A stretch of DNA of 64,000 bases from contig NZ_CP080544.1 of the NCBI RefSeq assembly GCF_019551435.1, positions 1,116,001-1,180,000 on the forward strand. The letters run 5' to 3'. Position 1 is the first letter of the stretch. The number at the start of each line of letters is the position of its first letter. The stretch is from Lysobacter soyae. Its GTDB lineage: Bacteria; Pseudomonadota; Gammaproteobacteria; Xanthomonadales; Xanthomonadaceae. Below are positions 8,085 to 10,815 of the stretch, piece by piece. Under the pieces are notes generated by a model. The model ran no database searches and had not been told where the DNA came from. It worked only from the letters and a program-made list of their open reading frames with translations. A program made the position numbers and the translations under genes.

Positions 8085-8888
8085 ATGCGTTTCGCCTTGG
8101 GCATCGAATATGATGGCGGCCCGTTCCACGGTTGGCAGCGTTCATCCGCTGAGGTTCCGTCTGTACAAGGGGCGTTGGAGTCCGCGTTGTCCAAAGTGGC
8201 AAATGCGCCGATCAGCGTGACCTGTTCGGGACGTACCGACGCCGGTGTGCATGCCCGCTGCCAAGTGGTTCATTTCGATTCCGAGGTGGCGCGGGATACG
8301 CGTGCATGGTTGCTTGGCGCGACGACGCATTTGCCGCGGGAGATCGCAGTGGCATGGTGCCGACTTGTTCATCCGGAATTCAATGCCCGCTTTTCTGCGG
8401 TGCGTCGGGCCTATCGCTATACGCTACTCAACCGGCAAACCCGCCCGGGCTTCATGGCTCAGTATTTGGCGTGGGAGCTGCACTCCTTGGATGCGCAGGC
8501 CATGCACATCGCCGCACAATCGTTGGTGGGCGAGCACGATTTCAGCAGTTTTCGCAGTTCCCAATGCGAAGCACCGCATGCCAACCGTCTGTTGACATCG
8601 ATCGCTGTCCAGCGGAGAGGCGACCTGATTCATATTGACGTTGAGGGCAATGCGTTCCTGCACCACATGGTGAGAAACATCGTCGGCGCACTGATTGAGG
8701 TCGGGAAGGGGCGGCAACACGTGTCCTGGATTGGCGAACTGTTGGCGATGCGCGACAGAACCCAAGGCGGCGTCACCGCGGCGGCGTGTGGATTGGTGTT
8801 CATCGGGCCACGCTATCCTGAAAAATGGAATCTGCCCGAAGAGGTCACCACGCGTGAGATCGCTGTTTCGAACTCGAACCCTGTTTGA
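8085..8888 (+). CDS. truA: tRNA pseudouridine(38-40) synthase
   Basis: TruA converts uridines 38, 39 and 40 of the tRNA anticodon arm to pseudouridine. The catalytic Asp is D52 in [10 protein letters not shown]. The protein begins [13 protein letters not shown] and has 267 residues, matching the family. ATG at 8085 follows fimV by 14 bases. Its last 35 bases overlap the start of the TrpF-like gene if that gene uses GTG at 8854. Confidence 0.95.
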
Positions 8889-9540
8889 CGGATTCATGCG
8901 GCCGGGCGATGTGCGCTTAGCGGGTGAGCTCGGTGCCGATGCGGTGGCTTTTCAATTCGGGCGCGAATCGACCCATAGCGTTCGGGTGGAGGCGGCGCGC
9001 AGCATGCGTCAGGCCATCACGCCGTTGGTGGGTTCCGTCGCCTCCTTTGCCAACAACACCCAGCAGGAGGTGCGGGAGGCCATCAAGCAACTGCGGCCGA
9101 ATCTGGCGATCTTCGCTGGTGAAGAAGAGGACGCGTTTTGCCGTGCTTTCGGCATCCCCTTCCTGAAGACTTTCAAGCAGGAGGCGCTTGTGCCCGGAAT
9201 GGATGGCAAGCAGTTGCACGCCAAGTTTCCAAGCGCTGCCGGATTCGTATTCCGGGCGGCGCAAGCTTCGAGTACCACGTCACAGTCCGACTGGAAATGG
9301 TTGCCCAGCGAGCTCACCAAGCCCTTTCTGCTCTCGGGCGGGTTTAGAATCGATGAGATATTCGAGATCATCACGACCGTCGAGCCTTGGGGCATCGTCG
9401 TCTGCGATGAGATCGAGGCCCGACACGGCCTCAAAGACGGTGAGCTGATGCGTCAAGTGGTTTTCGAATCCAGACGCGCCGATTGCCATGAGGTCCAAAA
9501 CGCCTGTGAAGGCACGCTCCCGGATACACGACATGACTGA
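8854..9540 (+). CDS. trpF: Degenerate phosphoribosylanthranilate isomerase (TrpF-fold pseudoenzyme)
   Basis: The 228-residue reading frame keeps the TrpF (beta/alpha)8 layout and sits where trpF lies in Xanthomonas relatives, but its active site is gone. Where TrpF has KxCGxTR this protein has LFDGFMR, so the catalytic Cys is Asp. The QxHGEE site reads IFAGEE (His lost). The strand carrying the catalytic Asp reads GFVFRA, with Arg in its place. The GGxG phosphate loop is SSTT, and VDVSSGVE is VVCDEIE. The scaffold stretches [23 protein letters not shown] and the tail RRADCHE remain. GTG at 8854 aligns with the family N-terminus; ATG at 8896 would remove strand 1. Isomerase activity is very unlikely. 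The intact frame suggests recent decay or a new role. Confidence 0.8.
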
Positions 9541-9859
9541 CGATAACGCAACCAACACCCAGGCAAACGAAACTGAAGGCGTCGCACTCGACCCGCAATT
9601 TTTCACCGCAACGAATGCCTATCTGGAATTGGCCAATCAACAAGGCCAAACTTTCGGCATGAAGCGCGTCAGTGCAGCGATCTTGTATGCCGCTGCGCGT
9701 TATAACTCTCATGCTTTCATCGGTTACGAAACCAACCCGGCGGCCAACAAGGAAGCCTTCGTCGAATACATGCTCGACTTGTATCGCCGCATGTTGGAAG
9801 AAAACGTCGACAATTTGATCGAGAACAATCAAGCCGTCGCCAACGCGGGTCAGGCCTGA
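9533..9859 (+). CDS. DUF3144 family protein, unknown function
   Basis: This is a 108-residue acidic, soluble, mostly helical protein of the DUF3144 family, found in proteobacteria without known function. Recognisable family stretches are FFTATNAYLELANQQ, MKRVSAAILYAAARYN and EAFVEYMLDLYRRMLEENVDN. ATG at 9533 overlaps the last 8 bases of the TrpF-like gene, so the two are probably translated together. In related genomes, as I remember them, trpB and trpA lie just downstream; here accD follows after 62 bases. Nothing in the sequence indicates a catalytic site. Confidence 0.75.
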   Translation: MTDDNATNTQANETEGVALDPQFFTATNAYLELANQQGQTFGMKRVSAAILYAAARYNSHAFIGYETNPAANKEAFVEYMLDLYRRMLEENVDNLIENNQAVANAGQA

Positions 9860-9864
9860 CCCGC
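9845..9864. repeat. Perfect 20-base palindrome over the DUF3144 stop codon
   Basis: GCGGGTCAGG (9845-9854) is followed directly by its exact reverse complement CCTGACCCGC (9855-9864), covering the TGA at 9857-9859. In RNA this would form an 8-bp stem with a GGCC loop. It is followed by ATTGGGTTT rather than a clean T-tract. It may be a terminator ahead of the accD promoter or a scar of the missing trpBA segment. Confidence 0.5.
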
Positions 9865-9921: not shown

Positions 9922-10815
9922 ATGTCCTGGCTGAAACGAATTACAACCACACGTGCCCGTACGGACGCGGGCAGTGAAACCCGCAAACGCAACGTCCCGG
10001 AAGGCTTGTGGGAAAAGTGCGACGAGTGCGGGTCTGTCCTGTATGCGCGTGAACTTGAGGAAAACCTTCAGGTTTGTCCGAAGTGTGCGCATCACATGCC
10101 TATTCGGGCACGTGCGCGGCTCCACGCTTTTCTCGACAACGGCAAGTTGCGGGAGATTGGCGGAGATTTGCTGCCTGTCGATGTCCTCAAGTTCAAAGAT
10201 CAAAAGAAATACGCTGATCGCATCAAAGCGGCACAAAAGAGCTCCGGCGAATCTGAAGGTCTGATTGCGTACGCCGGTCAGCTGAAACGCATGCCGATCG
10301 TGGCCAGCGCATTTGACTTCGGCTACATGGCCGGTTCAATGGGTTCGGTGGTCGGCGAGCGTTTTGCTTTGGGGGTGGAAGAAGCGATCCGCCTGGATGC
10401 GCCGTTCGTCAATTTCGCCGCGAGCGGCGGCGCCCGCATGCAGGAGAGTCTTTTTTCCTTGATGCAAATGGCCAAGACCTCGGCGGGCTTGGCGCGACTG
10501 CGTGATCGCGGGTTGCCTTACATCTCCGTACTGACCCATCCGACCACGGGCGGCGTTTCCGCCTCGTTGGCGATGCTCGGCGATATCAATATCGGTGAAC
10601 CCAAAGCACTGATCGGTTTTGCCGGTCCTCGCGTCATCGAGCAAACCATCCGCGAAAAACTTCCTGAAGGCTTCCAGCGCTCGGAATTTTTGTTGGAGCA
10701 CGGGGCGATCGATCAAATTTGCGATCGAAGCGAATTGCGTGACCGGATTGCTACTTTACTCGCAATGTTGGGCAAGAAGCCGGCGCCGGCGGATGACGAG
10801 GAGACGGTGGCTTGA
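9922..10815 (+). CDS. accD: Acetyl-CoA carboxylase carboxyltransferase subunit beta
   Basis: AccD with AccA transfers the carboxyl group from biotin to acetyl-CoA to make malonyl-CoA, the first step of fatty acid synthesis. The four-Cys zinc finger is C33, C36, C52 and C55 (CDECG and CPKCAHH). The crotonase-like core has ASGGARMQE and [11 protein letters not shown]. At 297 residues it is normal in length. The stop overlaps the TTG start of glmM by three bases. In relatives, as I recall, folC follows accD; here it does not. Confidence 0.95.

Follow-up and report, generated by a model that had tools for sequence, protein, structure and literature searches.

The window analysed here is a stretch of 64,000 nucleotides from the genome of Lysobacter soyae, which comprises 2,135,137 bases in one contig. 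Between truA and a gene for a DUF3144 protein it contains an open reading frame designated trpF*, the product of which (TrpF*) resembles phosphoribosylanthranilate (PRA) isomerase, TrpF (Table 1). The overlap of this frame with both of its neighbours, already described in the initial annotation, is confirmed: its GTG start at 8854 lies within truA (stop at 8886-8888), and the ATG of the DUF3144 gene at 9533 precedes the TGA of trpF* at 9538-9540. Terminator-like sites are more frequent in the 2.1 kb scanned (seven) than expected (2.6).

Table 1. Features of the truA-accD region (positions refer to the window)
Feature	Position	Strand	Remarks
truA	8085..8888	+	Upstream neighbour; 35-nt overlap with trpF* in this genome
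trpF* (TrpF*)	8854..9540	+	TrpF-derived (beta-alpha)8 protein, apparently catalytically dead; 228 aa; GTG start
Asp12 codon	8887..8889	+	Replaces the catalytic Cys; Asp in 8/8 TrpF*, Cys in 38/38 canonical TrpF; GA overlaps the truA stop
Beta-alpha loop 6, residues 134-146	9253..9291	+	Catalytic Asp and GGxG loop gone
VCDEIE, residues 183-188	9400..9417	+	At the place of the VSSGIE phosphate-binding loop
DUF3144 gene	9533..9859	+	Directly downstream of trpF* in 8/8 TrpF* genomes
Terminator-like hairpin	9845..9864	+	Identified by consensus match only, where the DUF3144 gene ends
accD	9922..10815	+	Downstream neighbour; no trpB or trpA before it, unlike in the relatives read, where both separate trpF from accD

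The frame is confirmed to be open over 228 codons, and its product matches the Pfam profile PRAI (PF00697; 1.3e-12, 48.3 bits) above the cut-off of 22.7. The best NCBIfam match is the TrpF equivalog PRK01222.1-2 (1.6e-63), with a score of 214.5 bits that falls below the curated equivalog cut-off of 270, and a phmmer search of solved structures (E<=1) returns TrpF chains only (6 sequences). An orthologue that is 82% identical is present in genome G007, and six more share 42-46% identity, so a chance reading frame is excluded; identity to the canonical TrpFs of the genus is 31-44%. Profile scores of 43-87 bits for TrpF*, against 133-153 for canonical TrpFs of the genus and 120-149 for those of 39 other genera, allow three states of the truA-side gene to be told apart. 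Annotation pipelines may label TrpF* as 'trpF', which would lead to misleading pathway models.

Among 17 genomes of the genus, the truA-side gene is TrpF* in eight (the window genome G000, G003, G007 and G009 to G013), a canonical TrpF in eight (G001, G002, G004, G005, G006, G008, G015 and G016) and a relic in one (G014). The trpF* orthologues are free of stops in all eight genomes, and each is preceded by truA (cut by a contig end in G012) and followed by the DUF3144 gene and then accD. The stretches read from canonical genomes (G001, G005, G015 and G016) have the gene order truA-trpF-trpB-trpA-accD, with the DUF3144 gene sitting between trpB and trpA in G016. Genome G014 has lost trp: it yielded neither a TrpA nor a PRAI match, and all that is left of its trpF is a shredded piece of 104 aa next to truA (L059:4551-4865, minus strand). 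It is probably a tryptophan auxotroph within the genus. The genus therefore displays side by side a canonical enzyme (eight genomes), a seemingly dead but guarded one (eight) and a shredded relic (one); a fourth stage is found in a related genus, one genome of which has a trp cluster and no native TrpF. This constitutes a natural experiment on what a barrel is selected for once another gene covers its reaction, carried out on a textbook barrel enzyme that is used in studies of enzyme evolution. Two further features of these loci were observed. An ORF of 183-185 aa lies between trpF and trpB in G005 (L050:5913-6464, minus strand) and 3' of the trpF relic in G014 (L059:4048-4605, minus strand), with a similar frame after trpF in G006, and five canonical TrpFs of the genus (L009, L012, L013, L014 and L015) continue past the barrel into an additional conserved C-terminal tail, ADC(E/N)NEHESGYR...CG.

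In a TrpF tree (LG+G4, four outgroups, UFBoot support) the TrpF* sequences are monophyletic (UFBoot 99) and cluster with the TrpFs of Stenotrophomonas and Pseudoxanthomonas (support 83), apart from the canonical TrpFs of their own genus. Long branches or an ill-bounded genus may be the cause of this placement. As TrpF* falls outside the TrpFs of the genus in the tree, its direct descent from the genus's own TrpF rests mainly on synteny.

Catalysis by TrpF depends on a cysteine and an aspartate that act as general base and general acid. TrpF* shares with TrpF (PF00697; 1v5x of T. thermophilus, 1nsj/1lbm of T. maritima) its fold, its sequence family and the native locus after truA, but all eight TrpF* proteins lack the catalytic cysteine, the catalytic aspartate and the GGxG loop, and their SSG loop is changed. 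This is seen in an alignment of the eight with 38 canonical TrpFs, eight from the genus and 30 from other genera (the subset of 39 canonical matches for which loci were available). The cysteine at the end of strand 1 is without exception replaced by Asp12 (LFDGF in the window), as stated in the initial annotation. The aspartate at the end of strand 6 and the first two glycines of the GGxG loop (loop 6), invariant in the canonical set (38/38), occur in none of the eight, in keeping with the loss of both catalytic residues and of this loop that had been described from the window. In loop 8 the serine is present in 38/38 canonical sequences and in 1/8 TrpF* (G011), the glycine in 37/38 and 5/8, respectively, and the SSG motif is altered throughout; its replacement by CDE in the window (VVCDEIE) and that of a histidine by Ala88 (FAGEE) were read correctly at the outset. 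The proposed change of the catalytic aspartate to arginine holds in part: the aspartate is lost, and the arginine stands opposite it on one alignment, with a two-residue deletion (FLFDGH to FVF--R) on another.

Some elements of the active face persist. The GG of loop 7 is retained in six of the eight proteins, its first glycine in all of them, and the glutamate after loop 8 is present in 8/8. Asp12 belongs to a stretch, D-G-x-x-R-P-G-D, in which every named position is the same in all eight TrpF*; the proline is also seen in canonical TrpF of Pseudoxanthomonas. The truA stop shares two bases with the Asp12 codon in the window genome and G007; in the other six genomes truA ends 159-174 bases upstream of this codon, and Asp12 is still invariant. 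When 395 genomes of the family were scanned loosely for the Asp motif (up to one mismatch), 109 matches were obtained, the eight TrpF* places included. Of 30 matches taken as loci, 29 are without TrpF similarity (E<=1e-4), and the remaining one (L076) shows weak TrpF similarity antisense to what is presumably an mnmG-like gene.

An aspartate at the first catalytic position is not foreign to this group of barrels, as HisA, a homologous isomerase, uses Asp. For PriA, a related isomerase, PMC13055916 lists Asp11 and Asp175 as catalytic, and hence the change from Cys to Asp alone is no proof of inactivity. The same paper describes the PriA subfamilies SubTrpF2 and AdeK of Actinomycetota, with HisA and TrpF activities that are altered after loss of trpF; TrpF* has, like these, an Asp at the first catalytic position, but unlike these enzymes with two catalytic Asp residues it has the first only. 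Position 137 is E in six TrpF* proteins and Q and G in the other two, so that no common replacement for the second acidic residue exists among the eight. The claim that TrpF* cannot isomerise PRA is well supported, as far as sequence can tell, since all eight proteins have lost the base, the acid and loop 6 together. It is very improbable that TrpF* still isomerises PRA by means of shifted residues: the fold is the same, the locus is homologous and the aspartate could serve as base, but there is neither a conserved acid nor a GGxG loop, the Arg of SPR and the His of QFHG are each missing in 3/8, and a second, Cys-bearing TrpF (TrpF_x, see below) is present. A role of TrpF* as a substitute for HisA was considered and rejected; such a substitute is not needed because HisA/HisF-type genes are present in 7/8 TrpF* genomes (none was found in G009, which is 86% complete).

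Selection on the protein was evaluated with a codon likelihood program of our own (GY94/F3x4) on gap-free columns from which the truA-overlapping part had been removed. The dN/dS ratio (omega), proposed in the initial annotation as the means of separating a kept function from decay, is 0.114 for the eight TrpF* sequences (198 codons; 2dlnL against omega=1 of 449.6), well below 1, and 0.119 for the eight canonical TrpFs of the genus (206 codons). Within group B (G003 and G009 to G013) it is 0.139. Five TrpF* pairs have values of 0.067-0.202, each rejecting 1 (2dlnL 37.7-147.5), with the lowest for G000/G007; three canonical pairs have values of 0.050, 0.087 and 0.41, the last of which comes from a very close pair. 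A joint branch model yields 0.119 for TrpF* and 0.118 for canonical TrpF, and a model with more classes yields 0.057 within G000/G007, 0.142 within group B and 0.185 for the two subgroup stems. When the classes within TrpF* are fixed at an omega of 1, the log-likelihood falls from -6268.75 to -6486.15, a cost of 217 units. As controls, truA has an omega of 0.092 in the TrpF* genomes (7/8) and 0.108 in the eight canonical ones; accD (0.044, eight genomes) and the DUF3144 gene (0.043, eight genomes, 74 codons) give values for the TrpF* group only, as the canonical loci used did not contain these genes (0 genomes). The low omega indicates that the protein is kept, and about as strictly as a working enzyme.

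Of the two fates originally suggested for TrpF*, retention for another role is favoured by the omega within its clade and by the uninterrupted frame in eight genomes, and recent decay is refuted. A pseudogene that is open by chance would fit the redundancy of TrpF* for the pathway by gene content and the slightly higher omega on the branches to the two subgroups; it has practically no likelihood given the overall and pairwise values, the cost of neutrality within the clade and the shredded trpF of G014, where true decay is visible. A decaying pseudogene was for these reasons discarded as a candidate.

An AlphaFold2 model built on five sequences (the window protein and four related loci) has a mean pLDDT of 85.8 and a pTM of 0.83, with eight strands in place and with loop 6 (139-143) and both ends below 50. 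In a Foldseek search of the PDB the model retrieves TrpF structures as its first 12 matches, among them the bifunctional 1pii and 7ety; the modelling suggested in the initial annotation predicts an intact barrel. Evolutionary rates were compared between TrpF* and a matched set of eight canonical sequences in six uncorrected tests, of which the smallest p value (0.006) concerns residues 134-210, the C-terminal catalytic half: its relative rate is 1.26 in TrpF* and 1.07 in the canonical set, and it has 18 invariant positions versus 35. With the same matched set, no significant relaxation was seen for the catalytic-face loops as a class (p=0.135), nor a significant difference for the opposite face (p=0.074) or for strands and helices (p=0.9), nor extra constraint on residues 16-59 (helices 1-2; p=0.53), where 25 of 44 positions are invariant in TrpF* and 23 in the matched set. 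The idea that constraint had moved away from the catalytic face, towards helices 1-2 and the opposite face, was dropped on these figures; it went back to an earlier, less well matched set, in which the shift looked stronger (p=0.036 for the catalytic face) and on which we do not rely.

These patterns bear on the main rival explanation, a repurposed enzyme in which Asp12 would have taken on a new catalytic role and the barrel would bind another, possibly phosphorylated, substrate. The invariance of Asp12 and of the stretch around it, the two aspartates listed for PriA (PMC13055916) and the retained glycines of loop 7 would all agree with such an enzyme. It is still rather unlikely, since the second acidic residue is gone in 8/8 with no shared replacement, loops 6 and 8 vary from one TrpF* to another, and the relative rate of evolution of the C-terminal catalytic half is higher than that of its canonical counterpart.

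The genome of the window contains a second PRAI match at 43 kb, within a cluster trpE-trpG-trpD-trpC-trpF-trpB-trpA, of which we take the genes trpE, trpG and trpD to be such from their sequences. All seven genes are found in the same order in 8/8 TrpF* genomes, each covering 92-100% of the query. The exceptions are two trpE matches, truncated by a contig end in G009 (61%) and by the limit of the stretch examined in G011 (81%). The aligned piece crosses a stop codon in five of the 56 matches to these genes (to trpB in four genomes and to trpC in one); the query frames extend 5' beyond the probable start codons, and for three of the four trpB matches an open frame of 394-401 aa is present. The TrpA of the cluster is 34-36% identical to native TrpA (five blastp comparisons, four within the genus and one with Stenotrophomonas). 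TrpA of this operon type (E<=1e-50) occurs in nine of 390 genomes of the family, namely the eight with TrpF* and G050, which belongs to another genus, and from its rarity the cluster may have arrived by horizontal transfer.

The TrpF of the cluster, TrpF_x, retains the cysteine (KVCGLT) and a GGSG loop and has a glutamate at the acid position in 9/9 genomes, and it is divergent in all nine in that SSG has become ASR and the His motif is absent (L041:2665-3288, minus strand; L042-L048; L093). Judged by these residues, TrpF_x is probably a divergent but working class of TrpF. As the same eight genomes carry the cluster with its Cys-bearing TrpF_x, TrpF* is, as far as gene content shows, redundant in tryptophan synthesis, and the presence of this separate cluster left TrpF* free to change. 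G050 has the same cluster with the same kind of TrpF_x, the only PRAI match in that genome; a search with a TrpF* profile recovered from G050 only a piece of another protein (E 0.004) and no TrpF*, and no DUF3144 gene was found there. TrpF_x can thus stand alone and TrpF* can be absent. An accessory subunit, that is a TrpF* that aids TrpF_x or the trp pathway much as TSB-like aids tryptophan synthase alpha in plants, would be in line with the confinement of TrpF* to genomes with the trpEGDCFBA cluster (8/8) and with the divergence of TrpF_x itself (Glu for Asp, the altered loop 8 and the lost His motif), but in view of G050 it is improbable; a strict requirement of TrpF_x for TrpF*, also considered, is weakened by the same genome.

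The DUF3144 gene is present in 8/8 TrpF* genomes and in two of the eight canonical genomes of the genus (G008 and G016), and it is absent from G014. In 40 further genomes (one per genus, G050 included) it was found in five, in each case within about 2.4 kb of trpF. All 15 DUF3144 genes found (10 in the 17 genus genomes and five in the 40 others) adjoin trpF or trpA or lie at most about 2.4 kb from trpF. The function of DUF3144 is likely tied to tryptophan synthesis, and as a lead it may be viewed as a trp-locus protein that remained with TrpF* when trpB and trpA went. The eight TrpF* genomes form one clade, and the link with DUF3144 may therefore be plain inheritance. A literature search in one open-access library found no paper naming DUF3144.

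Taken together, TrpF* is probably a conserved pseudoenzyme that was freed when a full trp operon took over and has been kept for a role other than isomerisation. The attributes of a pseudoenzyme are there: catalytic residues are lost, the fold is kept according to prediction, and the protein is under purifying selection. The trpEGDCFBA cluster with TrpF_x would have taken over tryptophan synthesis in the ancestor of the eight species, native trpB and trpA would have been lost from between truA and accD while native trpF stayed, and trpF would then have lost its catalytic cysteine, catalytic aspartate and GGxG loop and come under strong purifying selection; we infer this order of events in the take-over. 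The protein may act without catalysis, by binding a protein or a ligand, with constraint presumably relaxed in its catalytic C-terminal half, and the product of the DUF3144 gene, encoded directly downstream in all eight genomes, would be the first candidate partner. The absence of TrpF* and DUF3144 from G050 implies that the cluster can occur without a need for TrpF*.

Plants offer models for such a protein. PDX1.2 has a TIM-barrel fold. PMC6829848 describes it as a non-catalytic pseudoenzyme of eudicots with a regulatory role in vitamin B6 synthesis; TrpF* is likewise a putative pseudoenzyme of a biosynthetic pathway, although PDX1.2 belongs to a different family. TSB-like of core eudicots is described in PMC12727527 as a dead paralogue of the tryptophan synthase beta subunit that activates TSA. 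TrpF* would similarly be a non-catalytic relative of a tryptophan-pathway enzyme that has been kept in evolution; unlike this plant protein, whose role is shown, it is a bacterial TrpF descendant with a putative role. By analogy with TSB-like and PDX1.2, TrpF* can be read as a conserved pseudoenzyme that may act by binding. More tentatively, DUF3144, as a trp-locus protein, and the TrpF left orphaned by the take-over might form a new two-protein unit in which the dead barrel senses a ligand or holds a partner; if so, DUF3144 and a TrpF pseudoenzyme would each gain a first function, and among the titles searched in one open-access library no paper on a TrpF pseudoenzyme was found.

A GTG start is used for trpF* in the six group-B genomes without a clear Shine-Dalgarno sequence by eye, which counts against its reading as a kept gene. 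An Rfam search of L006:1200-2300, which spans the region upstream of trpF*, gave no match at E<=1. The same six genomes share a conserved stretch of about 130 nt between truA and trpF* (L006:1350-1500, plus strand, and likewise in L005, L007, L008, L010 and L011), with TCCAC...GTGG arms and an invariant TGACGTTWCGTGCTGAAGGATC immediately before the trpF* frame, and it is possible that this stretch provides trpF* with a regulation of its own.
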